Part shown: positions 14,816-35,218 of the stretch, one piece after another
Layout: each line of letters starts with the position of its first letter
Position numbering within the stretch: the stretch's first letter is position 1
Source of the DNA: Symbiotaphrina buchneri
Lineage: Eukaryota > Ascomycota > Symbiotaphrinales > Symbiotaphrinaceae
Assembly (NCBI GenBank): GCA_001599915.1
Contig: BCIG01000001.1
Location: 496,001 to 560,000 of the forward strand
DNA length: 64,000 nucleotides
Direction of reading: 5' to 3'
The notes under the pieces: generated by a model
What the model was told of the DNA's origin: nothing
The model's database searches: none
Seen by the model: only the letters and a program-made list of their open reading frames with translations
Translations under genes and position numbers: made by a program

Positions 14816-14970
14816 TGGGGGAAACTACGGCCGGTCCAAAGTAGCATTTCAGCCAAGTAATCATCCACGCTAGCCCAGGAGGGGGAACTAGGGCCGGTCT
14901 GACGTAGCATTTCAAGCACGGATTTCATCCAAGCTGACCCGGGAGGGGGAACTACGGCCGGGAAAAATCA
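14816..14970. repeat. About 65-bp tandem repeat, two and a half copies
   Basis: Copies begin GGGGGAACTACGGCCGG at about 14817, 14882 and 14945. The first two continue through TAGCATTTCA and a TCATCCA segment. The third is cut short after about 25 bases. Confidence 0.75.
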
Positions 14971-15543: not shown

Positions 15544-15675
15544 TAGGTGCTTGGACCGAGAGTAGGTGCTTGGACCGAGAGTAGGTGCTAAGACCGGGGG
15601 TAGGTGCTAGGACCGAGAGTAGGTGCTAAGACCGAGAGTAGGTGCTAAGACCGAGAGTAGGTGCTAGGACCGATA
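15544..15675 (-). repeat. Family A array in the 3' flank of the Cys-rich gene 1
   Basis: About seven 19-bp units lie just downstream of the stop codon of the minus-strand gene. On that gene's sense strand each unit reads CTCTCGGTCCAAGCACCTA with one or two changes. The orientation matches the other family A arrays relative to their host genes. A 19-bp unit does not preserve reading frame, so this copy of the array is non-coding. Confidence 0.9.
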
Positions 15676-15707
15676 ATTCGCCATTCAAGTTTCAAGGAGC
15701 TGGTGCC

Positions 15708-17567
15708 CTAGGACCTCGGCTTCTTGGCGGCGGGTTCTGGGCCGAGCTCGAGGTCATAATCATCCCAGTCGACCTCATCCTCAAAATCATCCTTTTCCTT
15801 CCTTTTCTTCGGAGGCGTGGCTGGGGCCGATGCCGCATCGGACCTAGCATCGGCGTCTTGATGGCCCACAGGATGATCTGATGATGACTGGACCTGCACG
15901 TTTCTTGTCTCCTCCAGCGCAGCAGATGTTGCTGGCGCTGCTGCATCATGCATTTCGTGATCTGCTGATGCTTGCGCTGGGGATGTTGATGCCGCAGGTG
16001 CTGCTGCTGCTGGCATCGGTGCAGGTGTGGATGATGATGCTGGAGCCGTGGTTGTTGTATTGGACGACTCCAGAAGACGGCCAGCTCTGGCCGCTTTTGC
16101 CCACTCGTTGTCCGGATCTTGCTGGGGCGGCCTGTTCTTGGGCTGAGGCCTGCCGTAGGGCCCAGGCCTTCCCCCGTACTGGTATTCACCTCCACCTCGG
16201 TTGTCTGCCCTGTTTTTGGGCGCGTGCGGCTGCGTATTGCTTGCCTTGTTGTTAGGCGCAGCCGAGGAGGCGGGTGTCTGCTTGGCCGGAGCGGAGGACT
16301 TGGCGGGGCCCAAAGACTTGGCCGGGGCGGAGGACTTGGCCGGGCCCGAAGACTTTGCCGGGGCGGTGGACTTGGCCGGGGCGGTGGACTTGGCGGAGGC
16401 GGGAGCAGGGGAATCCTTTTGTGGCCGGGAGGGGAGATCCCTTTGTCGCTGGTCCGGGCGGGATCTCTTCTGGGCCCCTGCGGGTTCGGAGGAGGACTTG
16501 GAGGTGCCGGGAGCGGAGGACTTGGTGGCGGTGGTGCTGGTGGCTTTGGTGGGGCCGGCGGGAGCTTGAGGCGGAGGGGCTGCATGCTTTGAGCGTCCGA
16601 TGAAACCCTCTCGAGACGCCTGAGGTTGAGCTCCTTGGCGTTGGGTGGCAGCTTCCACCGCAGCCTTGGACCTGGAGTCCTCACGAGATCGCCGTTCCTG
16701 ATCCATTTGTGCTAGTGGTCCTAGCGCTGGCGCGGCCGAGAATCTGCAAATCATCCATGCCCGCTCGTGGAGCTGGACAGCGGCCCGGACCAGTCCATCA
16801 ATCACGTCCGTAGGCTCACCAGCTTGCTCTGCCTGCAGGACCTCCCTCTTTGCCCTGGAGAACCTTTTCCGGGCGTCAGCCTCTTCTTGAGACATGCTGT
16901 TGGAAGGACGTTGAGGGGGCGCATTGCCAGGAGCCGACGGGAAGTGGGAGGTCTGGGCCGGGGGCTGAGGGGCAGGGAGGTGATTAGCCGTTGAAGGCGA
17001 GGGAAAAGCAAAGTTAGGCGTAAAGCCGGAAGGGAAAGCAGGGACAAAAGGAACAAAAGGCACAAAACCACCAAAGCCACCAAAACCACCAAAAGGAGAC
17101 GCAAAGGACGAAGAGAAATTAGGTGCTTGGACCGGGGGGGTAGGTGCTTGGACCGAGGGGGAAGGTGCTTGGACCGAGAGGGTAGGTGCTTGGACCTGAG
17201 TAGGTGCTGGGACCGGGGTAGGTGCTTGGACCGAAGGAAAGAAAGGCGCCTGACCGAAGCCAGGGCCCGCAAAAGGAGCTTGCTGCTGCTGGTGCTGCTG
17301 GTGCTGCTGGAGACGCTGCCGCTGGAGGCGCTCCTGCTGGTACTGCTCGTGCCGAGGGAAAGGATTTGCCGGATCATACCCGGCGTATGGGAGCGTGGAC
17401 GGGGCAGGTGCGGATGGCAGCGTCCGTGCAGGCCGCGGAGTCTGAGAGGATCCCGAAGGACCTCCTTCCCCGCGCGCGGCCAGCTGATGCCGGATGTGTT
17501 GACAGCCACGGACGAAAACCTTGCACTGATCGCACCAGACAGCCTTGCATGGACCGTAGTGGAGCAT
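15708..17567 (-). CDS. Cys-rich, disordered protein 1 with in-frame family A repeats
   Basis: The 619-aa frame opens MLHYGPCKAVWCDQCKVF. Directly upstream the same frame reads CARCG, so the protein probably begins in an earlier exon with a CxxC...CxxC metal-binding motif. After a Gln-rich, low-complexity stretch, residues about 105-150 are repeats of VQAP with spacers such as TLS or SPS. These are family A repeats translated in a 21-bp unit. Residues about 225-305 (starting near MSQEEADARKRF) match the smaller gene at 34229-35218. Later come tandem Lys-Ser-Ala-Pro repeats (about 390-430) and an acidic end with VDWDDYDLELG. No known family is recognised; the function could be nucleic-acid or protein binding. 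The upstream splice structure is not resolved: two probable introns lie between 17580 and 17720. Confidence 0.65.
   Translation of the reverse strand: MLHYGPCKAVWCDQCKVFVRGCQHIRHQLAARGEGGPSGSSQTPRPARTLPSAPAPSTLPYAGYDPANPFPRHEQYQQERLQRQRLQQHQQHQQQQAPFAGPGFGQAPFFPSVQAPTPVPAPTQVQAPTLSVQAPSPSVQAPTPPVQAPNFSSSFASPFGGFGGFGGFVPFVPFVPAFPSGFTPNFAFPSPSTANHLPAPQPPAQTSHFPSAPGNAPPQRPSNSMSQEEADARKRFSRAKREVLQAEQAGEPTDVIDGLVRAAVQLHERAWMICRFSAAPALGPLAQMDQERRSREDSRSKAAVEAATQRQGAQPQASREGFIGRSKHAAPPPQAPAGPTKATSTTATKSSAPGTSKSSSEPAGAQKRSRPDQRQRDLPSRPQKDSPAPASAKSTAPAKSTAPAKSSGPAKSSAPAKSLGPAKSSAPAKQTPASSAAPNNKASNTQPHAPKNRADNRGGGEYQYGGRPGPYGRPQPKNRPPQQDPDNEWAKAARAGRLLESSNTTTTAPASSSTPAPMPAAAAPAASTSPAQASADHEMHDAAAPATSAALEETRNVQVQSSSDHPVGHQDADARSDAASAPATPPKKRKEKDDFEDEVDWDDYDLELGPEPAAKKPRS
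17115..17240 (-). repeat. Family A repeats inside coding sequence
   Basis: Copies of the same core found in the 3' flank (GGTCCAAGCACCTA on the gene's sense strand) are here spaced mostly at 21 bp or other multiples of three. They therefore encode successive VQAP-containing units without breaking the frame. Confidence 0.85.
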
Positions 17568-17719
17568 GCCACAACGCGCACACGCTATCGAGGGTTAGAG
17601 ATGGTTCAAAAGGGTATGGGGTGGTGGAACAAAGCCAAGGTTACTTGCCAGGCATTCCAGTCATCTACATGAAGATATGTCAGTACTGATCAACTAGAGC
17701 AAGTCGTACCAATACGCGA

Positions 17720-18610
17720 GACTTACCTTGATGGTGGAAGGAAGGGAAAGAAGGAGGGATGGTGCTGGTGCTGGTGATGCTGCTGGTGCTAGTGGTGCAG
17801 TGGTGCAGATGGTGCCTTGCGGTTTGTGGGGATTTACAAAGAGGACTGTTTGTGGGAGGACGACGACATGGACGTACCCAGCTGCTAGGGTACAAGGTTT
17901 TCAGCCCTAAGACTACATGCAAGGTACCATGGTTATTATTAGGGAATTCTCTCAAGAGTGAATTATGCTGAGGTATTTGCCTTATCACTTGCCATAGGTA
18001 AGGTACCTACCTTCTTATTCACTTTTATACCCGAAATCTGGTCATTGCACTTCCGGGCTGATCCATCTCTCCTCCTACAAGTGACTCGGTCCTACCTTCT
18101 GCTGAAATAGTCTACGGCTCTTACGGTTGCGAGAGTTTTCCTCAACGCCGTGCGACCTGTCAAGATCAGGCTTTGCTAGAGATCATCAAGAGGAAACTCG
18201 CTCTACAAGTGCAGGTCTGGCAGCAGCCAAATTGGGCAAAGCCAAGGCCTTGTGGTCGGTCTAAACGATCGTCGACCATGATAGTGGCGCATGGAGTACC
18301 TGGAGACAATTGACGGTCAGGATGAGGCTCGTAGTAGATGTTGCTTGAAGCAATCATCACCCGTCCGAACGAAGATAGCAGGATCAATCGTTGTGTTGTA
18401 TAATGGCCCCATGACCGGTTCCCTCTGGACCAACCATCCAAGCGTTTCCAACATCTTTCTCCGCTCTTCTTGGCCCAATCCCTTCGCATCTAGACCATGC
18501 GAGTCCAGTCCAACACCGTGATACCATTGTAGGGTAATCCAGTTATCCTTGTCGTCAGCAATCCATCACCGTCGCCCCCAAGTCGGTTTCCGGCAATCCA
18601 TAAGCCGTCG
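17720..18610. promoter_or_regulatory. Upstream region of Cys-rich gene 1, similar to that of gene 2
   Basis: On the minus strand this holds the 5' leader and promoter of the gene ending at 15708. The segment about 17870-18050 resembles about 35480-35660 upstream of the paralogue: both contain a CTAGGGTA motif, a CCCTAA segment, GGTACCTACC-type sequence, TTATTCACTTT and a TTGCAC or TTGTAC end. The two genes were therefore duplicated with their promoters. No other gene is seen to 18610. Confidence 0.55.
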
Positions 18611-19870
18611 CTATGAGGTTTGAGAGTCCCGTGTTGCGGCGGTTGCGGCGGGACTCTTTTTGGAATGGGCAGCAGAGACTTTGAAGTTTGGAGAATTCGT
18701 GGCATTGGCTGAGGCCGCAGGTGCCCGTAATTGAGGCGGAGAGGATGCATGCTTTGAGGGTTGGATTTGCATCACTGGATCTGAATGGAATAAATTATCA
18801 GTAATGCCACGGTAAGTACGCTCCTGAAGGAAGCAACGCTGCAAATCAAAAGGGCCTGCTGGAGCCACGCATGCTCAGCGATGACTTACATATATTATCT
18901 GTAGCCAAAACCATTGGGCTGTGCGCTCGAGCTCGCCTGGTGTACGTCCCATATAGTCTAGAGTATGCCATGTCTGCACAGTTCTTTCTCCGTTGGATAG
19001 CATGGTGACCGAGACCCTTGACAGGCATAGGTCGACTAGCTCTTGGATCGGATTGTCCTTTCCAGGGTACCCGCACCTGCCGGAAAGAGTTAGTCAGCTT
19101 GATCAAGAATTGCACTGACAATGGATGCATACCTTCAGCCGTCTGAAGAGCAAGAATGTGTCTGGACGCGACGTGTCGAATCATCCAGCTCGCAGTCTTC
19201 GCCTTACAGCCTTGATGCTCAGAAGTGGTGAGGTTGAAAATTGGAGAGAACCAGCGAATGGTGGTGTAGTGTATGACGTCTGGAAAGAGGAGTTCCAGCC
19301 TTTCCATTCTAGACGACTGGCAAGGTATTGCAATCAGTTTCAACGGCCTGACCTTTGAAGCAGGGACTTACCAGACACTCAATCGTGACACAATTCTTCC
19401 TTCTACGGCCCAAGCGTCGTCAGAGAAGCAGGCGTCGGTTGGGGAACACCCGTAACTCTCAGTTGCTGTCACCGGTGAACCGAAATGGACCTTCCACTTC
19501 TCTGGACCTCCGCGAATTGAACGCCTGTCCCTCTGGAGTGTTCTTAACCGACTCCTGTACGCCATATACCGGCCGATCTTTTGTGTCTTCTCCATTCCGA
19601 CGGGTTGAAGCTCGAAGTTTGCGTATGACGTGAAAGACTCGAGGTTATCCGACGGGAAGATGCGATCGACGGTTTGCCACCGAGAACCTCTTTGGCCAGA
19701 CGACACTAGCATGGAAGAGGCAAGATGTAAACAAAGGCCGAGACGACCAGTTCTCGCAGACTCGCACAACCACCAGCAAAGGTCGAATCCGCGTAGGTTG
19801 GAAATCAGGCCTGCGGGAGGCGTCGGGAAGGTGTCGACAGGGTCGAAGCATTTCCATTCATGCTATTGTC
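18611..19870 (-). CDS. Unknown multi-exon protein; C-terminal exons resolved
   Basis: The last two exons are clear. One at 19076-18890 reads CGYPGKDNPIQELVDLCLSR and ends TAQWFWLQIIY. The final one at 18838-18611 reads RCFLQERTYRGITDN and ends in an Ala/Ser/Lys-rich tail with a stop at 18611. Upstream, a long frame (about 19865-19370) reads FDPVDTFPTPPAGLISNL, later IFPSDNLESFTSYANFELQ and GPEKWKVHFGSP, and ends at a GTAAGT. A further exon (about 19310-19210) reads LEWKGWNSSFQTSYTTPPF. I could not join every exon in phase, so the start and middle are uncertain. The tail SKHASSPPQLRAP resembles SKHAAPPPQAP of Cys-rich protein 1 and is similar at DNA level too. No family is recognised. Confidence 0.45.
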
Positions 19871-20279
19871 GCTAGCCTCTGGCCACAAAACATGCTGTGG
19901 CCTCCTAGAAGCACTCTAATTCAGTAACACTTCATGGCGGGCGATGATGGATAGAGTAGAAGCACGTACAGACGTGTGGTAGCATAAGTGACCCGGTCGG
20001 GACAGGATCAATGTACTGGACTTGAGAGAAAGGTAATCAGAAGGAAGGTGCGATAGGTGCAGTTGTATTATCAGGGCTCGCTAGATGTCACGCTTAATAT
20101 GGGGCACATAATTCACTTACCTTGTTCCAACTATTCATAGGCATCCCGACGGTCCAGTTATACTCAAACAGTCACTGCATTCATAATCTATTTACAGTGA
20201 CTTAATAAGTATGTATCTCTGTCCTTGATTCTGAGCATCTTGCAATCAGAGTTGATCTAGAAATTAGCCTATCTCGAAG

Positions 20280-21242
20280 ATGCCTCGCACAACCTCGACC
20301 GGGAAGTTCCCACGGAAGCTCAAGGTCACAAACCCTAAGATGGTACCAAATCCAAGTACCATGTACAGCTCAGCAAGGGATACAACTCGGTCGGCGGCTT
20401 TCTGTGAGTTGGCCAAATTTTCGATTGGTCTAGGTGATCAGGCCACACCAGATGGGGTGCTGCCACAATACGGGGAAGGGAGCGCCTTGCAAAGATGGGA
20501 TAAATGTCTACTCAAAATTGATCAAGACAAGTCTGTAGATGGAACCCTCTTCCTTTCCCTGAGTGGCACTGTGGTCGATGGAGCACCTGCTGGGACAACT
20601 CCAGAGATCGCCAGGTTCAAATTCCCGAACCGCCACGACCATATGTCGGTGATTATCCTTCGGAGTACCTTCACCATCCAGATCCTCAAGACTGACAAGC
20701 AGAACCAAAGTCAGAAGCAGTTGTGGGCCCTAATTCTCAAGGTGACGTCGGGGAATGCCAAAGAAGTCAAGAGATTCTACAACCATCTTCTCCGTCGTCT
20801 CCGTGACCTGCCTATGACTGCATTGTCCTATATCAATATCGGAAGGAATATGGCTGTAGCGGACCCCAGGCCTATTTCTTCCAGGTATAATCTCCGACGG
20901 AGACCTACCAAGAAATCAACCGATATTGAGACAGAGGATGGAGCTACCAGCAATGCAACTAATGCTGGTACAGGTGATGAAGGCCTTTGGGAGGATGTGC
21001 CGGACAATGATCAGGAGACGGAGCAAGAAGTTGAAGATCTGCCACCTTCGCTGTGGCAAAAGGTGGTTGAAAACAACAATGTCTGGGAGGTGGACATTGG
21101 AGACAAGACACCTCTTCAATTTACTGGAGCCTTCGCAAGCAAGCAGTTCATAGATATGTTTGAACGCCTTGAGATCGACACGGAGACTGCCTTTTCCTCT
21201 AGAGAGCGGAGAGAAGCAAAAAAGAGAAATCGAAATGAATGA
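20280..21242 (+). CDS. Unknown 320-aa protein with family B array in 3' flank
   Basis: A single uninterrupted frame starts at ATG 20280 (MPRTTSTGKFPRKLKV). The first 200 residues mix strand-like and helical segments, including HDHMSVIILRSTFTIQILK and EVKRFYNHLLRRLRDLPM. A basic patch SRYNLRRRPTKKS follows, then an acidic stretch of about 40 residues, then a tail ending in a Lys/Arg-rich cluster that could be a nuclear signal. No known domain is recognised. The family B array starts about 150 bp after the stop in sense orientation, tying this gene to the Spo11-like, AAA+ and chromo-shadow-like genes. Confidence 0.7.
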   Translation: MPRTTSTGKFPRKLKVTNPKMVPNPSTMYSSARDTTRSAAFCELAKFSIGLGDQATPDGVLPQYGEGSALQRWDKCLLKIDQDKSVDGTLFLSLSGTVVDGAPAGTTPEIARFKFPNRHDHMSVIILRSTFTIQILKTDKQNQSQKQLWALILKVTSGNAKEVKRFYNHLLRRLRDLPMTALSYINIGRNMAVADPRPISSRYNLRRRPTKKSTDIETEDGATSNATNAGTGDEGLWEDVPDNDQETEQEVEDLPPSLWQKVVENNNVWEVDIGDKTPLQFTGAFASKQFIDMFERLEIDTETAFSSRERREAKKRNRNE

Positions 21243-21393
21243 ATGCTACGGGAAACCAGTCCAGCAGACGATTGATCATGCTGAGATGGACCAACTTCTC
21301 CTCCGAGGCCTTTCGATCTGCATTTACTTTCTCTCTCTGATATTGGCATCGGCAATCTCTAACTCCTGATCGTCTGGTATCATCGCATGTTGT

Positions 21394-21565
21394 TCTGGCT
21401 TTAACGCCTACTTCGCCTTTAACGGCTACTCTGGCTCTAACGCCTACTCCGCCTTTAACGGCTATTCCGCCTTTAACGGCTATTCCGCCTTTAACGGCTA
21501 TTCCGCCTTTAACGGCTATTCCGCCTTTAACGGCTATTCCGCCTCTAACGGCTACTCTGTCTCTG
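21394..21565 (+). repeat. Family B array in the 3' flank of the 320-aa gene
   Basis: About nine 18-bp units such as GCCTTTAACGGCTATTCC and GGCTCTAACGCCTACTCC stand in the sense orientation of the upstream gene. In one frame they would read Ala-Phe-Asn-Gly-Tyr-Ser, but they lie beyond the stop codon. Confidence 0.9.
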
Positions 21566-22986: not shown

Positions 22987-23064
22987 GGTGCCCTGGCCGA
23001 GTGGAAGGTATTGTGACACAACGCAAGTTGCGATCAATTGCAGGTTCGACTCCTGCGGGCGCCG
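22987..23064 (+). tRNA. tRNA-like sequence, probably decayed
   Basis: The acceptor strands GGTGCCC and GGGCGCC pair with one G-T wobble. The T arm is perfect (GCAGG, loop TTCGACT, CCTGC), and the D-arm region TGGCCGAGTGG is typical of class II tRNAs. The anticodon arm cannot be folded with a normal 7-base loop and a U at position 33, and the region between D and T arms has the wrong length for either a simple or a class II tRNA. I read it as a tRNA pseudogene or tRNA-derived fragment. An unusual intron is a less likely alternative. Confidence 0.35.
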
Positions 23065-24178
23065 ATATACTTTTTTCTTTTTTTGCTCTTCTCGAATTAT
23101 TTGTCTTCTTTCCACTTTGCCAATCACCCGCATTGCACATTTTCTGGGAAACAACTGGTGAATACTTCAGGTAATCGACAAGATGACACTTCGCTCTTTA
23201 AGCCCACCTTAGGCACGAGCTCGAGCCCGATATGCTGGTACGTACAGTATCTGTAAGTCGGCAATGCAGTAATATTACTGGATACAGGTAAGGAACAGTT
23301 GCGGTTATTGATTAGGAAGGTACGTACCTTACCTTAAGGTAAAGTAAGGTAAGTAAGGTATTTCAACTCTGTAACCAATACTATAAGACCCTACCTGATC
23401 TATTACTCCGAAGCAGACGAAGAAAATACCTCTAAGGAGCATTGATAAGACACATTGAGCGCTACCAACAGTGGAAATGTACAGCTAATTTGATTGAAGA
23501 GCCCAGTAAACCCCAGGCGTAGAATCTAGAGCTATATAAAAACTGTCCTTGGCTGCAGTCAAGGATGTGTTGGAAGTTCAAGGCTGAAATTGTCCATTCA
23601 AGCCGGAGATTGGCCATTCAGGGCTGGGGTTAGCCATTCAGAGCAATAAGGAAGCAATCAAGAAGTTCAGTGTGATGCATCTGCGGAATGACGCTGTCAT
23701 GAAGCATGTTCAAGACTTTCCCTTGGTTATTGGAGCTTTTGGCTTGCGGGCAGCTGAGAGCTAGGCTTCGAGTTCTGTGGATAAAAGCCGTCAACTTGTT
23801 CTCCAATTGGCAATGGATGACATCCGGGTTTGTCCTGTTGTTTGCGGGAGTGAAGGAAATAGCAGCAAGCTTTCATCCAAAAGCGGTGTTTCACAGTGGG
23901 TATTGGAAATCAGACAGGAAGGGTTGCCTTAGCATTGCCCATATTAATAGCTAAGGAATAGCTCTGAAACGCTTAAAACTAGACTGTAAGCACAGTATTT
24001 GATCTGAAAATAAGGAGCTGAAAGGACAATGGCTGAGCTAGAGAAGAACGAAGCAAAACCGAAAACAAAAAACAAAACAAAAAAAAGGAAGAAAAGCAAG
24101 AAGAAAGAAAAGAATTCAGACACTAAAAAGGGAAATCGGATGTTATAAAGCTACATGAGCAGTACAGGATAGTCATGC
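23065..24178. other. Intergenic; short 22-bp tandem repeat at 23573-23645
   Basis: Three imperfect copies of a unit ending in GGCCATTCA (as in GCCGGAGATTGGCCATTCA) occur at about 23573-23645. A plus-strand frame at 23706-23954 is hydrophobic but unsupported. AAGGTAAGGTA-type motifs occur near 23330. Confidence 0.4.
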
Positions 24179-24352
24179 AGGCGGAGTAGCCGTTAAAGGC
24201 AGAGTAGCTGTTAGAGGCGGAGTAGGCGTTAAAACCAGAGTAGGCGTTAAAACCAGAGTAGGCGTTAAAACCAGAGTAGGCGTTAAAACCAGAGTAGCCG
24301 TTAGAGGCGAAGTAGCCGTTAGAGGCGGAGTAGCCGTTAGAGGCGACAGGGG
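24179..24352 (-). repeat. Family B array in the 3' flank of the Spo11-like gene
   Basis: About nine 18-bp units lie just beyond the stop of the minus-strand gene, in its sense orientation (for example GGTTTTAACGCCTACTCT). One frame reads repeated Gly-Phe-Asn-Ala-Tyr-Ser without a stop across the array. Confidence 0.9.
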
Positions 24353-24378
24353 ATGGAATGCCGTTTGAAGAGATGAGA

Positions 24379-26034
24379 TCACAACAGAAGAGCCCCGCTC
24401 ATAAGGATCTCACCGTTCTGAGATTGAGAAACTCGTTCTGGAGAAGTCTGTGTTGCAGTGACACTCGGAGCACTGTCAAAGGCTGCTGTGACAGAATATC
24501 GCTCCACTCGCGATTTGATCGGACCAGTTATAGTTGGCCCTTCGGCCAGGGGTGCTTCTTTGTCAAGGATTTGACAGACAAAGGTAATAGCCCCCATTTG
24601 GTCATTTTGGCAGAGTTCGGACATTCCAAATCCCTATATACCAGTAAGTAAGTATCCTGAACGATGTATTCGTGTTGATATACATACAAGAGCACCATGA
24701 TCCAGCATCCGGTCGATCTCCGGTCGAAGCTCTGGCTCGTGGTCCAGAAGACCCAAATTTCGGAAACCTCTAACCAAAGACCGGTCATTGTTCGTGACCT
24801 TGTTACCGTTGAGGACCCTGTTTGTATGGGCAGTCCAGTCCCTGCGAAGCTCAGCGGCCGTTGCTGGGACGCGGTCTTTGGCTATGGTTCGTCTGAGAGC
24901 TCGCTCTTCGGCTTCCGCCTGAGCGTATTGTCTGTTCGACTCATGGAGATCATCCACCGCCGGTCCTACCCATTTCATCCTTGGGCATGTTTGGATGTGC
25001 GATGCCCAGGCAGTGGCTTTGGAACCATACTTCATATTCAGGAAAATTTGAAACCCATTGAAGTCATGGTCCGAGAAGAAGAGTACTGGTTTGTCTCTCA
25101 GCTTGGCATCCTTGGCCAAGAGACAAAGAAATTCTCGGCAGGAAGAGTCTGCGTACCCGCTGGACTAAATACCACGTCGTCAGTGCTTGTCTACAGCTTG
25201 GTAGGAATCTGTGACTTACCATCACCACGATTGTATTCTTCACCTTATCGAAGGACTGTCGAAAGAGTTGGTCCAGGTTTCGATGTTCGCATACAATAAT
25301 TGCACGCGGGGTGATGCCCTTTGACTTGCAGGTGACTCGCAGGTCCTGAATCCTGAATGGGATTGTGTGACCCCCCTTCCTCGCCACCAAAGTGATGGGA
25401 TTGACCTCCGTGGGCTTGTGGATGTCAATAATTTGTCGGATGTGGATGCTCACCCCTGGTGGGACCATCACCGAACCATAGGACTCGGTCTCGATCCCTA
25501 AAGACACCGGATGGACACCCAACGTCATAGCGCAGGTGTATATGAACTGCTTGACCATTTCTTGCGGCATATGAGATGATTTCTGTATCGAGTCAACCAT
25601 AAAATCCCAGCAGGATCGAATTGCTCGATAAATACCATCTGATACCCCAAGCGACGTATCCGGATGGTCTGCTTGTGGCCAAGCATCTTGAGCAGGCGAA
25701 TGCTAATCAGGACAAGCCGGCAGATGAACCGTAGATGGGTTGGACATTCCATCTTCCTGGGGGTCTGTACTCACTCAGCCATGGTCCCAAATAGGAAGCT
25801 GCATCAACTCACAGGACGGCTCAACCTGACCAGAATGTGCCCTTGGCCATCTTCTGTTGGCTGAAGTTCGTATATTCCCTTTGCCGTTGATGACGCAAGT
25901 TCCACAGAGAGCTTCTTGTGCAAGTCACAGAAGCGTAACCATTTCTCCAGTGTAGACTTGACTTGAACGTCATTTCTCCAATCCAGGCGGACAACCTGAT
26001 TTGCCATTGTTCTGGCTCGTCTTAGTTTGGGCAT
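24379..26034 (-). CDS. Spo11 / topoisomerase VI subunit A-like protein
   Basis: Four exons (26034-25813, 25702-25220, 25164-24688, 24633-24379) join in phase to 478 aa. Known Spo11 and TopoVIA proteins cut both DNA strands through a tyrosine, with a Toprim domain holding the metal. Here residues about 186-194 (HTIPFRIQD) and AIIVCEHRNLDQLF (Glu213) match the Spo11 segment that carries the Toprim glutamate. SSGYADSSCREFL stands where the family has GKGYPD. SDHDFNGFQIFLNMKYGS supplies the Asp-x-Asp pair (267, 269), and CPRMKWVGP matches the conserved end of the domain. A tyrosine at 99 (SDGIYRAI) lies in the winged-helix region, but its context is not the usual R-D-x-Y-Y. A C-terminal tail of about 80 residues is extra. 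This looks like a divergent member, not the standard meiotic SPO11. Confidence 0.82.
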
Positions 26035-26520: not shown

Positions 26521-27171
26521 ATGGCCAGGTCTGGATCGGACGAGTCCAGCTGGGAAGGCTTTGACGACGATGATATCGGCCAAGAGGAGGTCGATCTAAT
26601 CAAGTCCTCCCCAGGGCCGTCTCCCTCCCCTGGACACTCCGGACCGTCCCGAGCTTCCGAGGATTCTGATTGGTCCAAGGAGTCGGAGGCGGAGGAGGAC
26701 AAGGACGAGGACGAGGACGAGGTCGAGGAAGATGATGACCTTCGTGAGTATTCCTCCAGCATTTCACCACATCAGTACATACTCATATGGTTATGATCAG
26801 CTCCTGCTCTTAGGAAACCCCCGGCCTTAAAGACAAATCGTTGGCTCCGCTCTCTCAGGGATCAACTGCCCGCCATAGAACCGGCCATGCAGGCAAAGGC
26901 CAGGGCTCTCATCGAAAGAAAGGAGCAACGGAACAGGAGGAGGCTGCTCAAAAGGGCGGCCAACAAAAAGGCGAAGAGGTCCCAGCCTGAGCAGCCTCAG
27001 CAGCCGCAACCTCGCCAACCTCCCCAGCAGCCGCAACAACAGCCGCCACAGGCTGTCGGCCAAGCGTTGGGAGTTGCTGGTAGGAAGCAGAGAAGGAAGC
27101 AGAAGAGGAATGAGTTGCTGCATGATCGGAGGCTCCGGCAGAAGGCTGAAAGACAAGCGGCCAGACACTGA
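26521..27171 (+). CDS. Acidic N-terminus, basic C-terminus unknown protein
   Basis: Two exons (26521-26743, 26801-27171) join in phase to 197 aa. The first half is rich in Ser, Asp and Glu (MARSGSDESSWEGFDDDD, then a long Asp/Glu run). The second half carries a helical segment (LRDQLPAIEPAMQAKARALI), a very basic region (ERKEQRNRRRLLKRAANK), a Pro/Gln tract and a second basic cluster (GRKQRRKQKRNELL). The charge layout suits a nuclear protein that could contact DNA, RNA or histones, but no family is recognised. A family A array follows the stop by about 110 bp. It is divergently paired with the Spo11-like gene. Confidence 0.65.
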
Positions 27172-27283
27172 GCAACGTCAACAGAGTGGCTTGGTCTTCT
27201 GCATGCATGATGCTCCGGCACAATCTGCACCGGCGTTCATCATCAAACTCCTTCTTCGTCCTCTCGCCTTTTGAAGGTCTCAT

Positions 27284-27420
27284 ATTCGGTCTAAGTACCT
27301 ACACCGCCTGAGCGGCTATTTCGGTCCAAGCACCTACCTGCCCTGAGCGGCTATTCGGTCCAAGCACCTACCTGCCCTGAGCGGCTATTCGGTCCAAGCA
27401 CCTACCCGCCCTAAGTAGCC
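27284..27420 (+). repeat. Family A array in the 3' flank of the acidic-basic gene
   Basis: Four units of about 34 bp each contain CGGTCCAAGCACCTAC followed by CTGCCCTGAGCGGCTATT. The core is the same as in the other family A arrays and again in sense orientation. Confidence 0.85.
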
Positions 27421-28267
27421 AATCCGCTGTTTTTCAGATTTGTTGTTTTCCTTCCTTGGTTGACATGTACCATATCCTCTACGTAATTCTTGTTAGCCTA
27501 GCTTCGCTGGTTTCGATATAGGCAGGAGGTTAGATTCTTTGCACATTAGCCTAGCAGTGCTCCAGAGGATATAAGGGATATAGCTTTATCTCAGCTGCGC
27601 CATCTTATAGGTCCTTAGTTGGGAATATTCTGATGCTTGCTTAATGGATTGCTTTGAATGATCAATGATACAAAAGCGGTTAGCCTGAATATGAGAGCGA
27701 GTACCTGCCATCTTGGACACATTGAGGGTCTATATAAGGTACCTGGTAATAATCAACCACAAGGTACTCCGTACCTGCCCTGACAACTCTGCTCGCCTAA
27801 TGGAGGTTCGCAAGCACCTGATATTACAGAGAACCTCTGTCACATTCACCACAGACTGTGATTAAGGTACATATCTCCATTGCGGACCTGCATCGTAGGC
27901 TTCATCGTAGATTTCCATCGTGAATATCCTACCTAAGGTACTGATCACTTTCATAGCTCTTCATCGGGATCTTCGCCACAAGCGCCATCGTACATCTTTA
28001 TGGTAGATCTTTGAAATTAGGGTTCCACATGCTTAGTCCTGATTTCTACTTGTTGCGCAATTACAAGACGCAGGCTTACGAGCTCTATCCCTTTTAAGGT
28101 AGGTAGGTACCTTTGCCCGGGGCGGCAGTTTGGAAGCCCGGCCGAGAGCCATTGGTGTATTGCTACCTTGAATTGCAGCAAAAATTCAATGCCCAAAAGT
28201 AGATACAGGAGAGAAGAAAGGAATGAAACAGATATCGGAGGAGAACATTTGGTCATTGCACGCTTGA
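27421..28267. other. Intergenic between two 3' arrays
   Basis: No frame is supported. Several GGTACCTAC-like motifs are present. The interval lies between the convergent acidic-basic and AAA+ genes. Confidence 0.45.
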
Positions 28268-28443
28268 CGTTAGCCGTTAAAGGCGGGGTTGTCATTAAAG
28301 GCAGAGTAGGCGTTAAAGCCAGAGTAAGGTAGCCGTTCAAGGCGAAGTAGCCGTTAAAGGCGGAGTAGCCGTTAAAGGCGAAGTAGGCGTTAAAGCCAGA
28401 GTGGGCGTTATAACCAGAGTAGCCGTTAGAGGCGGAGTAGCCA
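28268..28443 (-). repeat. Family B array in the 3' flank of the AAA+ gene
   Basis: About nine units, mostly 18 bp, lie just beyond the AAA+ stop (28480) in its sense orientation, for example GCCTTTAACGGCTACTCC. A frame different from that of the AAA+ protein reads through the array as Asn-Gly-Tyr-Ser-type repeats. Confidence 0.9.
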
Positions 28444-28479
28444 TCAGACCGGAGACAGTACATGGACGACTTGATGGAA

Positions 28480-30396
28480 TCAAGGGTTAGGGACACCTTT
28501 GAAGAAGTCCATATTTCTCCGTGCAAGGACTTCGTCTTGTCCGGACGTTGCAGAAAGGTAGTAAGCGAAATCATCTGCCGTTATTGGGCGATGCCAAGCT
28601 TCCCTCCCAAGGGAATCAGCAGAAAGCCGTTGAGCGTCCTTATCCTTGTCTCCGCAGGGGATGAAAACATCCTTGCCTCTGATCTTGGCGGGCTTGAAAT
28701 GTGTAGCTTCCCACATTTCAAGGAGGAGTTGATCGGCGACCCGCTTGAAGGCACTCAGGATATCTCGACCGCTCTTATTGTCCGATACATCCTGAAGGTA
28801 AACAAGCCCCTTGGCGTCCACTTCATGAATCTCCTTGTCCAACATGTTCTTGATGATCAATTCCCTGGCCTTGCGTGTTGGAAGTCCCATGTGCAGTTGG
28901 ACTGGGCACCTGGAGAGCATTGCGGAATCGATGTTCCATGGGCAATTCGATGTTCCCATGACCACAACAGTGGCGGGCAACGAATTCATGAGCGAGAGGA
29001 CGGTCGTCGTGATACGATTGAGCGAGGAATGTTGTTCCTCCTCGCGTTTCTTGAAGAAGCTTTCCATCTCATCGAAGAAAACAATTGCCGCTGGCTCTCG
29101 GCAGGCCGCAGCGAAGAGAGCTGCGACGATCCTGTTACTGTTAACATGAGACCATTGAAGGGACCTGGGGACACCTACTTATCACTCTCACCGAGGTACT
29201 TCTGGATCAAGACGGCACTGGTGATCTGGAAGAAGGTGATCTTGAATTGCCTGGCCATGGCCATGGCCAGCGACGTCTTGCCAGTCCCAGGAGGACCATA
29301 GAGGATTACGCCACCGGCAGGGAAACAAGAGTTGGCGTACAGGTCTGGGTTGCTCCTCGTCGCTGCTGTAAAGACGAGTGCACCTTTTAGCCCTTTTTTG
29401 ACCTCTTCGTCACAGATAATGTCACTGGCCGGCTTGCTGTCACTGAGGTCGACCTTGAGACTTTGGACCAAATCGGCGAATTGACTCGCGTTATTGTCCT
29501 CTGTCATAGGTACGCCTTGCAGCCCGGACTCGCTAGTAAGTGACTGGGTATGTGAGCAAGAAGATTCGCCAGTCAAGGGGGAGGGTTGTTTGCCGTTAGA
29601 GGCGGAGTAGGCGTTGGAGCCAGAGTAGGCGTTGGAGCCAGAGTAGGCGTTGGAGCCAGAGTAGGCGTTGGAGCCAGAGTAGGCGTTAGAGCCAAGTTGG
29701 AACGTTGGTGTGCGAAAGCCGGCCAGACCACCTTGTACAGGTTCAGTGGGAGTTGGCGACCTCTCCTCCAGGTACTCTAGCACTGCTTCCAGCCTTTGAA
29801 GAACTTCTGGACTGTGGTCCCCGCTGTTGACCCTCTTGATGTGGGCAGAGAGGAGACAGTCGGCCTGTCGGAGGGCTAAAATACGGGCTTGGTCCTCAAG
29901 ACCCTGTGCCAAAGCCTTTTCTTGCACAAGACTCATGGCCAAAGCGATTTTCTCCAGGCGCGGACCTGAAGGTGGATGCTGCTGCTTGTTGCTCCGATTT
30001 TGGTCATGGCAGTCTAGAAGTAGTGGCCAAAGAGTGAAGGTTCGCACCTATGATCTCGATCAGCATCTAAGATTCACGAAGATGCCAGAACTTACATTGA
30101 GCCAACGTTGGTAAAGCTTACTAATGTCCTTTGTGACAGGACAGGTGAATAGTTTCCACAAAGAAAGCTTCATCCTTCGTGGGTCGGCAGCGGCTCCAGG
30201 AAACATGCTGAACGATGATTCCATCGTAATTGCCTCGATGCTTCCTGAGTATACATGCTCTGTTCTAAAAGAAACCCCGCATCAGCCAAAATCATCATTG
30301 CTTTGGGATGGAGACTCACGAGGATGTATTTGCCTTTTTCGAGGCCGACCCATCATTGGAATCAGCAGAACGCTTCGCGGGAACTGAAGAAGCCAT
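28480..30396 (-). CDS. AAA+ ATPase with in-frame family B repeats
   Basis: Four exons (30396-30320, 30264-30096, 30047-29179, 29131-28480) join in phase to 588 aa. The single AAA module has Walker [10 protein letters not shown] (about 333), the pore-loop region [16 protein letters not shown], Walker B IVFFDE (387-392), sensor 1 VMGTSN and an arginine-finger region AMLSRC. This order is that of the meiotic clade (Vps4, katanin, fidgetin), which remodel protein assemblies using ATP. The N-terminal part has a helical segment (about 112-172) that could be an adaptor or MIT-like domain, and then repeats of SNAYSG (about 202-236) as a flexible linker. It is divergently paired with the chromo-shadow-like gene. 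The precise clade and substrate are unknown. Confidence 0.85.
29596..29696 (-). repeat. Family B repeats inside the AAA+ coding sequence
   Basis: About five near-identical 18-bp units (GGCTCCAACGCCTACTCT on the sense strand) encode consecutive SNAYSG hexapeptides between the N-terminal helical region and the ATPase module. Confidence 0.95.
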
Positions 30397-30763
30397 GCTG
30401 GTGCTTCGAAGAAGTGAATGGAAATCAAGGTCTACAGTATAGGAACTTGATGAGATAATAGAGATCAAGATCTACAGTATGAGGTAGGTAGGAACTGGAT
30501 GAGATAATGTAGATCTTGTTTGTTAATTGCTGTATCTGGGAAGAGCGATCTCTCTTGATCAGTACATTGTACCTAAGGAAAGGTACCCTATCATCATAGA
30601 TTGGACATGAGTAATGACAAGTATACGTAGCCTACCCAGTACTTTTCGCTTCGTCCTCAGTCGGGTCGTAACCCTAACGCACCTTGAACACAGTGAATGC
30701 CATCCACAAAACGGAAAAGAATACAATTCTCTCTACTTTTCCAGTATTCATAAGTGGTTCATC
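30397..30763. promoter_or_regulatory. Shared promoter of the AAA+ and chromo-shadow-like genes
   Basis: A 367-bp interval separates the two divergent start codons. It contains two copies of a segment similar to GATCAAGGTCTACAGTAT (about 30427 and 30466) and GGTAGGTAGG and AAGGTACC motifs near 30484 and 30580. Confidence 0.4.
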
Positions 30764-32100
30764 ATGTCTTACGTCTTGTGTCAGTTTCCTATATTGATTC
30801 AACCAATCATGTAACTAATAGAAGAGACACAGTTTGCCGAAGTTCGTCGACCAATTCCGCTTCGGCCACACCGCGACGGCAACGAAAGGTGCCCACCACT
30901 GTCAATCTCGATGAGGGTGTAAGACTCATATTTACACTGTCTGATAGTTATGAATTTAGCTGACCATAAATCTAGGAGAGAAATGAGGAAGAGCAACCGG
31001 GTGGTGACGCTGAAGATCCCGTTCCCAGTGGCGAGAGCTCCAGTAGCGAGAGCTCCAGCGACGAGAGCTCCAGCGATGAGGACTCGGCCACTAAGGAAGT
31101 CAACGATGTGGTCGACGATGAAGCCCCCTTTCCCGACGACCAGGGCTCAGGGTCCAAGGAGGTCACATCAGTGACCGACCCTACATTGTTGCGGGAATCA
31201 CCTTTTCCGTTCCCCCCCGACTTCACCCAGCGTAGGCTCAAGCATAAATATCGAAGCCAGGGAACGCTCGGTCGGGGGGTTGACCCACCCACGGCTTCGA
31301 GGACTTCCGACAACCCGGCTAGGCCCTTGCAGTCAAGAAGATCTGTGGGCGCGAGCCCTGAACTTGGCTCACCAAGGACGCCTCCTCAACCCGCACCCAA
31401 GCACAGGCGTGACCGGGTTTCTGTTTCCTCAAGAATAAGTCCGACGGTGTATTCACCAAGCCCACCTCACCCTTCTACCTTGAATGACCAATCTCCCGCC
31501 TCTAACGGCTACTCTGGCTTTAACGGCTACTCTGGCTCTAACGCCTACCCTGGCTCTAACGCCTACCCTGGCTCTAACGCCTACCCTGGCTCTAACGCCT
31601 ACCCCGCCTCTAACGGCTACTCCCCCGCCTCTAACGGCCAATTACCCGCCCCCTCTTCTCATCAACAAGATGTTGGAACTGATGCTGCCAAGGCAAACGC
31701 CGACAAGGCTATCCATCAGTCGGCTGCAACCCTGAAAAGGAAGCGGACCACTGACGATGTGACGGAAGCTCAGGACCGCACGGCCGTAGGGCAAAGTCCC
31801 TCGTCTGCGAGTGCAGCACGAGATTGGGATGATTACGATTCCCTTGATGATGTTGAGGGTGTGATTGTTTCCAGCGTGGAGTACCGCCGGGACCACTACC
31901 AGCACTGGCTGGTGAACTTCACCCGTGACTCGGACGGCGAAGATTTGCAATTGCCTTTCCTTGAAGCTGTGAGACGTGCTCCAAATAAGGTTAGTATCGA
32001 ACTCCGATAGGTTTACTTTGGCAGTACTAACCAAAGCCAGGTCGCTATTCATCAGGGCATGCTCACTAATGCCATAATGAGAGCCCAAATAAGGCAATAA
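30764..32100 (+). CDS. Chromo-shadow-domain-like protein with in-frame family B repeats
   Basis: Four exons (30764-30777, 30822-30918, 30976-31989, 32041-32100) join in phase to 394 aa. A short basic start is followed by a Ser/Glu-rich acidic tract with repeated ESSS units, a long disordered region, and family B repeats reading SGSNAYP (about 31495-31640). The C-terminus reads DWDDYDSLDDVEGVIVSS, HWLVNFTRDSDGEDLQLP and FLEAVRRAPNKVAIHQGML. That layout resembles a chromo shadow domain: a W-(E/D)-D start, strands ending near a 'WNNG' turn, then a helix with P-x-K. Chromo shadow domains are dimerisation modules of HP1-type heterochromatin proteins. No chromodomain is seen. The 14-nt first exon and its weak donor are the least certain part. 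Confidence 0.6.
31495..31642 (+). repeat. Family B repeats inside the chromo-shadow-like coding sequence
   Basis: Eight or so 18-bp units such as GGCTCTAACGCCTACCCT encode SNGYSGFNGYSGSNAYPG-type repeats in the frame of the protein. Confidence 0.95.
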
Positions 32101-32646
32101 TTTGCACACCTAGCTTACTCAATACTGGTTTCAACGCCTAATTTTGGCCTCATTTTGCTGCCAACGCTGTATGTAGCAATTCTGCCAAAGGACGAGATTA
32201 CCTTTTTGGGAATACCAGCTCGCCGCACATGCTCACATTTAAATCCCATAGTCTGAGCTCTCGGACTTGTTCCTTCGTGATCTGACACCTGGGGTGTCTC
32301 GTGTTGACATACCCTTGGTATTGCTTCCGTCCATCTTTGTACTCGCGTAGTCCCGCCAGGCTCCTGGCACTGCTCGGTTACGCCTTAACTTTCCCAACGC
32401 AAAATAATTCCCCTGAGCAGGAAAAAGGGGGCGGTCACTCTTTCCGTTCTCCACAGCTTCACACCAAATTCCCTGAACCTACAGCCATTACCGATTCCCT
32501 AAGTCGCTAAGCTGGTTCGGTTGACCATACCTTGGGTCCTCGCACCACCGAGAGACATACCTCCTACCTACAAGACGTGATCACCACACCAAGCCAGGAA
32601 GCTTCAATCTTATTACCACAACTACAGCTTCCTGCAACAAGCAAAA
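32101..32646. other. Intergenic; promoter of the 222-aa gene
   Basis: No supported frame. It contains the 3' flank of the chromo-shadow-like gene and the upstream region of the next gene, including CT-rich sequence before the start codon. Confidence 0.4.
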
Positions 32647-33367
32647 ATGGATTCTCTTCCAGGTGTCGACGCTGATCTGTTTGAGCCGGCTCCTGCCTTC
32701 CTCCCTGAGGACATCGCTCATGCGTGGCGAATGTTCAACCTCACTCGTCAAACCAGAGGTGAGCTTCCAGAAGGGAAAAGCAAAAGAGTTCGAAGAACTC
32801 GCAATCGAGCTTTAAGAACCGCAGTGGGACCCTGCACTATGGCCCTCAAGATAGTCTTGAAGTTTGCTCGTGATCGGGTCCTTGCGGCCAGAGAACTTGG
32901 AGGTGATGACCCTGAGGCGCTCAACGTGGTCGGTCTCTGTGGGGATCGGATAATCTGGGTCAGTGTACTCATTACCTCCTGTCCATGAGCGTTGGGGCTA
33001 ATTGAAACAGTATAAAAGGCAGCCTTGCATAATAGAGCACGCAAAGGATTATACGGCGAATCCGTTGGTTTGGTGTACGGATTATTGCCGCGACGCGATC
33101 AGTCCGCTACGCAGGAGAACCAACAAAGGTCAAATAGTGCCACCGGAATTCAAGCCAGCCATCCTGAATTGCCAGGAATACTGGAAGCTCTTACAAATTG
33201 CTGTTGGGATGTTCCCGGACGATACGATCATCACATCGAACGAATGTGCCCGCGAGTTACTGTTCTTACAGTCAATGCTAGACAAGATCGCAAAGTTCGA
33301 ATCACAGGTCTTAGCTGCCGCCCAGCTAAAGAAAGGCACTAAGAGAAAATCTGAGGGTAACTCCTAG
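32647..33367 (+). CDS. Unknown 222-aa protein with family A array in 3' flank
   Basis: Two exons (32647-32958, 33011-33367) join in phase to 222 aa. The start is MDSLPGVDADLFEPAPAF. A basic segment (GKSKRVRRTRNRALRT) is followed by a hydrophobic helical stretch (TMALKIVLKFARDRVLAA). The second exon holds four cysteines (near QPCIIEH, VWCTDYC and ILNCQEYW) and ends in a helix and Lys-rich tail. No known family is recognised. A competing frame across the second exon is open but less protein-like. The family A array begins about 55 bp after the stop. Confidence 0.6.
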
Positions 33368-33422
33368 CAGCTTCTCCCTGATCAAGCCGTCAATCCGATA
33401 TCCGACCCCTGCGGCTAGTCAT

Positions 33423-33497
33423 TGGTCCAAGCACCTAATAACGGTCCAAGCACCTATTATCGGTCCTAGCACCTAATATCGGTCCTAGCACCTACTC
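33423..33497 (+). repeat. Family A array in the 3' flank of the 222-aa gene
   Basis: Four 19-bp units of the type CGGTCCAAGCACCTAATAA lie in sense orientation. Confidence 0.9.
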
Positions 33498-34053
33498 TGC
33501 CTGGTGTTTGTGTTTTCAGCTCATGCTTTTGTTTTGTCTTTATCGCTGCTGGGTTATGGTTGTTTCGTTGTTTCGTTGCTTCTTGTTCTTATCATCTGTT
33601 TCAAGACATAGATACTTGCGACACGTTAGCAATACTTGCTACACGTTAGCAATACTTGCTGCACGTTAGAAATACAACGGTGGCTCTCATCCACCGGCTA
33701 CATCATTCTATCCATAACGGGATCAGGCAAACTACTTGTTCGGAAGTCTTGCAGAGTGAAGAAAGAGATCCGGGACCTCGTGCGTAGATCTAGAGCACGT
33801 CGTAGTTGCCAGTTACCATACCATGTTCGTTACAATATCTTACATAAATCGGTGCGAGAAGTGGTGGCGTCCATAGCCGGTAAAGATTTTGGCAATTCTA
33901 AGCAGGTACGAAGATGTGACCAGGCTAACAAACAAACAACAAGCCAGATGGAAAATGGGTTGACACAATCAGACCCCGCCTTTAGCCATAAAGCAACAAT
34001 TCGATACACCACATATTGACCACTGACACAGGAATTTCAGGTATGGACCAAGA
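33498..34053. other. Intergenic; 20-bp tandem repeat at 33612-33673
   Basis: Three copies of ATACTTGCTACACGTTAGCA with small changes occur at 33612-33673. No frame is supported. Confidence 0.5.
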
Positions 34054-34183
34054 ATAGGTGCTTAGACCGAGAGTGGGTGCTTAGACCGAGAATAGGTGCT
34101 TAGACCGAGAGTAGGTGCTTAGACCGAGAATAGGTGCTTAGACCGAGAATAGGTGCTTAGACCGTTATTAGGTACTTCGACCG
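34054..34183 (-). repeat. Family A array in the 3' flank of the Cys-rich gene 2
   Basis: About seven 19-bp units (CTCTCGGTCTAAGCACCTA on the sense strand) stand just beyond the stop of the minus-strand paralogue. Position and orientation match the array after gene 1. Confidence 0.9.
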
Positions 34184-34228
34184 ATGATTAACCACTCAGG
34201 CAAAGGAGCCAGGCCTTTTGTCGGGACG

Positions 34229-35218
34229 CTAAGACCTCATCCTTTTGGCAGGACGGCTTTCACCATCGGACCCCTCACTTGATGCCGGTCGTTTGGCAGT
34301 GACAGCGCGCGGGGATGCGGAGGTGGCCGTGGTTGAGGGGCCCCATGTTCCAGGCGCTGAGGGCCGGGGACGGAAGGCCAAGGCCTGGTGGAAGCTGGGC
34401 ATTGGACGCTCGCCTGCTGGGCTCTGGGCTTCCTGGCGTGCTTCATCAGCCTCACCACTATACGGCCTGCCACCTTGATTTTTTGCCTTGGCCTTGACAG
34501 CGGAGGGCTGTGATTCGCCCGGCGCGCTGGTATTCTTTGACCGGCGGTTGAGATGTGGCGCCCTCGCCTTGGTTTGCCCTTTGGCCTTTTCTCTCTCCTT
34601 CCTTTCCTTGTCCAGATCGGCGAGTGGTCCCAGGCCTGGGGGCGGGGCGGTCCTGATGACCCTCGTGGCCTCTTGGTGGATTCTGATAGCCGCTTGAAGC
34701 AGCTCATCAACAACTTGGTCGGGCTCCCCAGCCGCCCGCGCCTCTCCAACGCGCTTCTTTGCCTTGTTAAACCTCCTTCTGACGTCTCGTTCTTCCTCAG
34801 GCATTTGCCTGGTCGAAGGCGGTTGAGAGTGCGGTTGGCCGGAGGCCGAGGGAAAGCTTGGTCCAGGGACCGAAGGTTGGGCGGTGGAGGGTTGAGGTGC
34901 CACCGAGGGCGAAGGAAAGGCGTTGTGTGGCATATAGCCAGGATAGGCGGGCACGAAGCCAGGAGGTAGCGACCCGGCTGGAGCGTATCCGAACACCCAA
35001 CCACCGAGAGGAGAGCCGAAAGGCTGTGAAGGCACTGAGCCCTGGTTGTATGGCCCTGGGGCCGGGTAGCTTGGCGCTGGGGCCGAAGCAAAGAAAGGCA
35101 TCTGGGCGAAGCCAGCAGCTGCCGGGGGCTGCTGTTGATACCGTCCGTGGAACGGACAGAAGCCAGGCCAAGCCCGACCACACTGCTGGCACCAGATCAT
35201 GCCTTGTTGCTCTGACAT
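34229..35218 (-). CDS. Cys-rich, disordered protein 2 (paralogue of 15708-17567)
   Basis: The frame starts at ATG 35218 (MSEQQGMIWCQQCGRAWPGF) immediately after a TGCAG acceptor, so a leader intron (donor at about 35281) probably ends at the start codon. WCQQCGRAWPGFCPFH matches WCDQCKVFVRGCQH of the larger paralogue, and both likely bind zinc. A Pro/Ala-rich region follows. Then comes a conserved block (MPEEERDVRRRFNKAKKR, later GLGPLADLDKERKEREK) that aligns with residues about 225-305 of paralogue 1, and a basic tail. It lacks the in-frame VQAP repeats and the WDDYD end of paralogue 1. Promoter similarity and the matching 3' array show that the whole locus was duplicated. Function unknown. 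Confidence 0.65.
   Translation of the reverse strand: MSEQQGMIWCQQCGRAWPGFCPFHGRYQQQPPAAAGFAQMPFFASAPAPSYPAPGPYNQGSVPSQPFGSPLGGWVFGYAPAGSLPPGFVPAYPGYMPHNAFPSPSVAPQPSTAQPSVPGPSFPSASGQPHSQPPSTRQMPEEERDVRRRFNKAKKRVGEARAAGEPDQVVDELLQAAIRIHQEATRVIRTAPPPGLGPLADLDKERKEREKAKGQTKARAPHLNRRSKNTSAPGESQPSAVKAKAKNQGGRPYSGEADEARQEAQSPAGERPMPSFHQALAFRPRPSAPGTWGPSTTATSASPRAVTAKRPASSEGSDGESRPAKRMRS

Follow-up and report, generated by a model that had tools for sequence, protein, structure and literature searches.

An oriented hairpin element common to eight neighbouring genes of Symbiotaphrina buchneri, probably acting as a tag on their mRNAs

Post-transcriptional regulons usually unite scattered genes by means of short, degenerate motifs. 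The ASH1 localization elements are stem-loops in the coding region and 3′-untranslated region (3′UTR), few and dissimilar, and the boxB, PP7 and MS2 hairpins are laboratory tags that are used as tandem arrays. PMC9656906 describes several ASH1-type elements per mRNA and a set of messages recognized by the same RNA-binding proteins (She2/She3), as well as labelling systems in which boxB, PP7 or MS2 hairpins in mRNAs recruit a protein. In the DSR (determinant of selective removal)/Mmi1 system of Schizosaccharomyces pombe, tandem short motifs mark meiotic mRNAs and at least six copies suffice, according to PMC3352096. In the present study, we analysed a stretch of 64000 nt (the window) of the ascomycete Symbiotaphrina buchneri (contig BCIG01000001.1, positions 496001–560000), in which one oriented hairpin element, absent from a first-pass annotation of the sequence, is common to eight neighbouring genes. 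We hold, with moderate confidence, that these repeats are cis-acting RNA hairpin tags that place the eight mRNAs under one post-transcriptional control. The block, at 15.5–35.2 kb of the window, comprises eight hand-built gene models and a doubtful ninth (gC) in the order gA(−), gC(−), gD(+), gSpo(−), gPQ(+), gAAA(−), gChr(+), gH(+) and gI(−), with tandem arrays on all eight modelled genes.

By analogy, DSR/Mmi1 is the nearest working parallel, as the motifs stand in tandem in both cases and several messages are, or here would be, under one RNA-binding protein; nine of our ten arrays have six to nine units and that of gH has four. However, the unit here is a longer hairpin, the tagged genes are neighbours and the ten arrays contain no copy of the DSR core U(U/C)AAAC, and on this last count we rejected identity with the DSR. 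In addition, no YTH protein, the class that binds DSR messages and brings about their elimination in mitotic cells, was found among the block proteins scanned with Pfam. Smaug (CNGG) and PUF (UGUANAUA) sites were likewise rejected with 0 occurrences in the ten arrays. As with ASH1, several elements are present per mRNA in a set of messages, but here as four to nine near-identical units in a row, and in contrast with boxB, PP7 and MS2 the arrays are natural, with a protein partner that is only a candidate. Literature searches on Spo11-like/AAA/repeat modules, Spo11 with Starship cargo, ascomycete 3′UTR minisatellites, fungal stem-loop RNA regulons and tandem-repeat stem-loops with gene clusters and meiosis gave nothing fitting, as judged by title and listing.

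The arrays, their orientation and placement, the compensatory pairing of the arms and the frame-respecting spacing of the coding arrays are all read directly from the sequence. Each unit is 14 nt long and consists of a 3-base arm, a 6-base loop (YYNARY), a second 3-base arm and TA (UA in RNA), after which a spacer of 3–9 nt gives a repeat distance of 17–23 nt. There are 73 units in ten arrays, which Tandem Repeats Finder reports as separate periods of 18–21 or 34. Two repeat families had been described in the first-pass annotation, and the repeats are real, but all of the units, 73 from the arrays and two that stand alone, align without gaps, with A at loop position 4 and C at unit position 12 in 75 of 75, which makes the families variants of one hairpin element. 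Family 1 belongs to gA, gH and gI and family 2 to gD, gSpo, gAAA and gChr, and gPQ has both in one compound 34-nt repeat. The arms are fully paired in 68 of the 73 units (GGT/ACC in 28, GCC/GGC in 22, GGC/GCC in 13 and GGT/GCC in five) and not fully paired in five (GCC/AGC twice, CGC/GGC, GCC/GAC and GGC/GGC). These counts carry a bias towards pairing, as the seven references used to collect the units, with up to four mismatches allowed, are themselves all paired; the arms were free to differ within this limit. Rfam covariance models gave 0 matches at gathering score over the 64 kb and, at E values up to 1 in the 15–36 kb region, a single sub-threshold mir-962 match (26953–27037), which lies outside the arrays.

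The pairing of the arms was assessed over the 27 distinct rows of the alignment, in which 92.6% of the cells were paired (74.6% when shuffled), the covariation score was 0.541 (0.251 when shuffled) and 18 cells were changed on both sides (8.5 when shuffled); in none of the three measures did any of 500 shuffles reach the observed value. When the register was slid by one to three columns the covariation score was at most 0.097, and the best of the alternative 3-bp stems (loops of 3–9 nt; unit plus 4 nt on each side) was paired in 23 of the 73 units. Outside the coding regions, 25 of 27 family 2 units were paired, compared with a maximum of 21 among 5000 shuffles. The five GGT/GCC units form a G–U wobble pair in the sense strand only, and in the two GCC/AGC units wobble is possible in the antisense strand only. 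For a unit taken singly, the predicted fold is the hairpin alone (−1.6 to −4.1 kcal/mol).

All ten arrays lie on the sense strand of their gene; six antisense readings occur inside the arrays at up to three mismatches, each at exactly three, because the unit is nearly palindromic. Seven genes have a 3′ array of four to nine units, starting 34–154 nt past a stop codon, whereas the eighth, gChr, has a coding array and one unit after the stop; the three coding arrays are those of gA, gAAA and gChr. This corrects the first-pass annotation in that seven of the ten arrays sit outside the protein. In each of the three convergent gene pairs both arrays lie next to their own stop codon. The chance of a sense-strand start no more than 155 nt past a stop is 0.081 per array and, assuming independence, 2.3e-8 for all seven. 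This calculation covers the 8593 non-coding bases of the block; its distance limit was derived from the data, and arrays of shared ancestry are not independent. The spacing is divisible by three in 17 of 17 cases within the coding arrays, compared with 24 of 46 elsewhere. The unit is translated as VQAPTP in gA and, in a different frame, as GSNAYS/P in gAAA and gChr, and in an alignment of gA with gI the gA coding array stands mostly opposite a gap. Our interpretation of these three cases is that an RNA tag has been accommodated within a protein sequence.

In the mechanism that we propose, the arrays would be transcribed as part of each message, each unit would fold as a small hairpin in the cell, and one trans-acting RNA-binding factor would read the multivalent rows of hairpins, so that the stability, localization or translation timing of the eight messages might be controlled jointly. 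The candidate factors are gA and gI, which are Cys-rich, of low complexity and themselves tagged. Several results weigh against this interpretation. The units of one array are copies, and there are perhaps only three or four independent stem changes. Two of five measures were not above shuffles, as the observed value was at least equalled by 417 of 500 shuffles for pairs changed on both sides and by 499 of 500 for further pair types. The family 2 coding units, a weaker test, were paired in 13 of 14 cases with 24 of 5000 shuffles as high. Antisense arrays are about as stable as sense arrays, with similar folding z-scores, and the sense gA coding array (z +1.18) and gPQ 3′ array (z +0.29) are not more stable than shuffles, the remaining sense arrays having z-scores of −1.18 to −5.5. 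Within whole arrays the mean probability of the local hairpin is 0.04–0.36, because the units also pair with each other. A scan at up to three mismatches, from 14 kb onwards and outside the arrays, gave 21 matches, including the two counted as true single units, and this number is within Markov expectation (11–31 in eight trials). At E values below 1, a covariance model of the unit found four extra sites on which it had not been trained, with scores near chance (Table 1). Finally, no RNA-binding domain above cut-off was recognized by Pfam among the block proteins.

The arms GGT-N6-ACC, GCC-N6-GGC and GGC-N6-GCC could also be read as double-stranded DNA sites for a dimeric protein whose role would be to regulate, insulate or break the locus, the nuclease perhaps being the Spo11-like protein. 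They are inverted repeats, a Toprim protein is encoded within the block and the antisense strands fold as stably as the sense strands. However, the middle of the unit is asymmetric, with positions 4 and 9 mismatched, all of the arrays are in gene sense and located past stops or in coding regions, and the interchange of GGC and GCC arms suits a stem more than a fixed half-site, and we regard DNA sites as unlikely.

Quite unlikely, too, are functionless minisatellites of single origin that conversion or unequal exchange multiplied within a fast-evolving region, with a pairing that goes back to few founder units. The homogeneity of the arrays, their few founder types and the presence of other minisatellites at 9.5, 13.1–13.3 and 14.8 kb, to the left of the block, would fit such an origin, but the sense orientation, the placement at stop codons and the preserved reading frame do not, and the same-unit 3′ array has been kept in both gA and gI although these have diverged to 44% identity. 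Moreover, the number of matches outside the arrays, being within Markov expectation, indicates that the unit has not spread over the window.

We also considered a model, to our mind decidedly improbable, in which the arrays form an RNA addressing code, with messages of the same family pairing in trans to give a self-tagging module around the Spo11-like enzyme; the gA, gH and gI mRNAs could then gather by one code and the gD, gSpo, gAAA and gChr mRNAs by the other. Over the first 80 nt, the mean trans pairing energy was −28.7 kcal/mol for family 1 (controls −18.4; 4 of 120 composition-shuffled controls as low) and −32.6 kcal/mol for family 2 (controls −20.7; 3 of 200 as low), a within-family effect partly expected for any tandem repeat with near-palindromic units, whereas between families it was −18.5 compared with −19.3 for controls (111 of 200 as low). 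A role of gPQ as a bridge of both families is not supported, as 17 of 40 and 8 of 50 controls had energies at least as low as its own.

That the repeats serve the proteins, as low-complexity tails such as (GSNAYS)n for protein condensation, with the non-coding copies as by-product or decayed remains, is very unlikely. GSNAYS/P in gAAA and gChr and VQAPTP in gA are indeed in frame, and the 3′ arrays of gD and gSpo lie in open frames at a spacing of 18 nt. However, the 3′ arrays of gA, gH and gI have a 19-nt period and that of gPQ mostly 17 nt, and therefore encode no repeating peptide, and the one unit gives unrelated peptides in two frames; on the spacing evidence we rejected peptide repeats as the main function. 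Barely plausible is that fungal sexual-stage A-to-I mRNA editing, which according to PMC11156358 and PMC9600606 favours hairpin-loop adenosines with U at −1, uses the hairpins as substrates. Loop position 4 is A in every aligned unit, but UA is present in 51 of 73 loops, making the invariant A independent of the preceding U, and the reported sites are mostly coding and come from Sordariomycetes and one Pezizomycete.

Cis-acting RNA hairpin tags thus remain our preferred reading. The earlier proposal that the block genes form one module is supported by the tag that they have in common, a hairpin of fixed orientation whose arms change in a compensatory manner and which lies close to the 3′ end of the messages. 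The same cannot be said of the proposal of a mobile or selfish element, for which flanking repeats had been suggested as a check: between the flanks (13.4–15.54 and 34.19–38.6 kb) there was no inverted match of at least 12 bp, the sole direct match was 14 bp long (at 15487 and 38164), and no transposase, recombinase or Starship captain was present among the 20 proteins and exon pieces scanned with Pfam. In the absence of terminal inverted repeats from the flank comparison, with its single 14-bp direct match, we rejected a mobile element. A dedicated DNA-break/chromatin system, the other suggestion, retains one Toprim domain, but the searches detected no chromo shadow domain and did not recover the catalytic tyrosine, as detailed below.

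Table 1 Genes, hairpin arrays and single units of the block, with extra sites found by the covariance model
Feature	Position	Strand	Description
gA	15708–17664	−	Cys-rich, P/Q-rich, 630 amino acids, two coding exons, no Pfam match
gC	18850–19862	−	Open exons, unclear splice model, no array; doubtful gene
gD	20280–21242	+	320 amino acids, single exon, no known family
gSpo	24379–26034	−	Spo11/TopoVIA-like Toprim protein, 478 amino acids, four exons, start codon picked by eye
gPQ	26521–27171	+	Low-complexity, 197 amino acids
gAAA	28480–30396	−	Classical AAA ATPase, 588 amino acids
gChr	30764–32100	+	394 amino acids, chromo-shadow-like protein of the first-pass annotation
gH	32647–33367	+	222 amino acids, no known family
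gI	34229–35218	−	Cys-rich gA paralogue, 329 amino acids
gA 3′ array	15544–15671	−	Seven units (GGT/ACC), period 19, 36 nt past stop
Single unit GCC-TTCAAC-GGC-TA	16985–16998	−	Within gA coding region
gA coding array	17120–17232	−	Six units, spacings 18 or 21
gD 3′ array	21397–21554	+	Nine units (GCC/GGC, GGC/GCC), period 18, 154 nt past stop
gSpo 3′ array	24187–24344	−	Nine units (GCC/GGC, GGT/GCC, one GCC/AGC), 34 nt past stop
gPQ 3′ array	27288–27421	+	Eight units, families alternate, 116 nt past stop
gAAA 3′ array	28271–28433	−	Nine units, one spacing 23, 46 nt past stop
gAAA coding array	29590–29693	−	Six units, translated GSNAYS
gChr coding array	31498–31640	+	Eight units, one unpaired GGC/GGC
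Single unit GGT-TTCAAC-GCC-TA	32127–32140	+	26 nt past gChr stop
gH 3′ array	33424–33494	+	Four units, period 19, 56 nt past stop
gI 3′ array	34055–34182	−	Seven units (GGT/ACC), period 19, 46 nt past stop
Covariance-model site	34687		E 0.085, gI coding region, sense
Covariance-model site	35071		E 0.26, gI coding region, sense
Covariance-model site	15512	+	E 0.83, beside gA array
Covariance-model site	54807		E 0.93

Other repeats were seen next to the arrays of Table 1. Just past the gA array, on the strand opposite to gA, there is a family 2 unit with a complete stem (15512–15525, plus strand); approx. 740 nt past the gSpo stop there is a degenerate period-20 array (23577–23645, minus strand) containing two units of the same architecture with the loop CTGAAT; and gH is followed by a second, different array of period 20 (33612–33675, plus strand), for whose copies a hairpin TTGCTA-CACGT-TAGCAA is possible by eye, perfect in one of three. 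In non-fungal collections, tandem patterns of both families gave 0 matches in viral contigs and family 1 gave 0 in genome contigs.

The first-pass annotation correctly described eight adjacent array-bearing genes, as the gene models and the tandem-repeat listing agree, and of its nine genes only gC (approx. 18.85–19.86 kb) could not be given a clean splice model or an array. The divergent and convergent pairing that it described also stands, with three neighbour pairs of each kind and start-to-start gaps between modelled start codons of 486 bp (gSpo/gPQ) and 367 bp (gAAA/gChr), together with approx. 417 bp for gC/gD, where the gC start is uncertain. The predicted Spo11-like enzyme is borne out in its Toprim domain (PF21180, E 3.7e-17, 63.3 bits against a cut-off of 24.1), and TopoVIA A subunits were matched in the PDB (4.4e-6 and 8.3e-5). 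A profile of 40 archaeal TopoVIA proteins matches the Toprim region of gSpo, hhalign of gSpo with TopoVIA covered 344 columns (probability 90.9, E 1.1e-6; a single comparison), and the Toprim E and DxD residues are visible by eye in the model. Toprim is thus common to gSpo, Spo11/TopoVIA and Wadjet JetD, the JetD_C match being weaker and below cut-off (E 5.3e-4). However, there was no Pfam match to TP6A_N, and the RELYY segment stands opposite a gap relative to the 40 archaeal TopoVIA proteins, in a part where the alignment is unreliable; the catalytic tyrosine was not recovered. Like JetD, which is reported to lack this tyrosine, gSpo may do without it and still be a Toprim enzyme. AlphaFold without an alignment gave a mean pLDDT (predicted local distance difference test) of 40.5 for gSpo exon 2. 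Searches for gSpo relatives gave no pattern match in viral contigs and one archaeal gene in plasmids (E 0.7), and those for gAAA, gD and gH in viral contigs gave pattern matches and no relative, although these non-fungal collections say little.

The AAA ATPase prediction held as well (PF00004, E 1.5e-28, 100.3 bits), with the Walker A motif GPPGTGKTS seen in the gAAA model; as regards a place in the meiotic clade (katanin/spastin/Vps4), Rix7 and Cdc48/VCP were on top and spastin near the end of the match order among the best 60 of 224 PDB sequences. The Cys-rich paralogues are likewise real: gA and gI are 44% identical over 108 amino acids, lie in the same orientation at opposite ends of the block and share two related upstream fragments (36 bp at 83% and 71 bp at 73%). 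Both have zinc-knuckle-like Cys patterns by eye, the only profile hint being a sub-threshold Zn_ribbon_PRDM4 match of gI (E 0.011). In contrast, a chromo shadow identity of gChr was rejected, as at E values up to 10 it matched 0 Pfam families and, in the PDB, no chromo protein but only Cmr5 (E 1.3). An acidic stretch, DWDDYD, occurs both in the gA C-terminus and in gChr ahead of its C-terminal region, and is perhaps an interaction motif common to the two. The gA, gD, gH and gPQ proteins and the gC exons had no Pfam match of note, gD, gH and the gA N-terminus had none in the PDB at E values up to 10, and the mean pLDDT of gD, modelled without an alignment, was 36.7.

In the flanks, Pfam recognized a PAP2 phosphatase, a piece of a Ras-family GTPase, a TRM5/TYW2 methyltransferase domain, an ERCC4 domain, a VPS11 repeat and a leucine-rich repeat protein. 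Surroundings affected by repeat-induced point mutation (RIP) had been proposed, and the stretch at 2.5–7.4 kb is indeed AT-rich and RIP-like (GC 0.19, TpA/ApT 1.11), at 8 kb from the block, but the GC dip at 12–14 kb is mostly an assembly gap, a run of N at 12142–12833 adjoining repeats. Inside the block the RIP indices lean towards RIP in gChr only (0.95 and 1.05), values that are biased by the low-complexity arrays. The hairpin-unit scan found no array in the left-flank minisatellites (9503–9699, 13087–13340 and 14818–14961). The motif AGGTAC is enriched at 14.5–36 kb, with 32 of the 41 copies in the window, often as AAGGTACCT and several in putative promoters, and is perhaps a shared promoter element of the block. 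Between gD and gSpo (22987–23064, plus strand), ARAGORN reported a tRNA-like gene whose anticodon could not be read.

If confirmed, RNA hairpin tags of this kind would provide a searchable signature for fungal gene modules of obscure role, as well as a natural hairpin–protein pair. Membership of such a module would be readable from the sequence, as neighbouring genes that naturally bear hairpins in rows close to the 3′ end, and the genes tagged here include a divergent Spo11-type protein.

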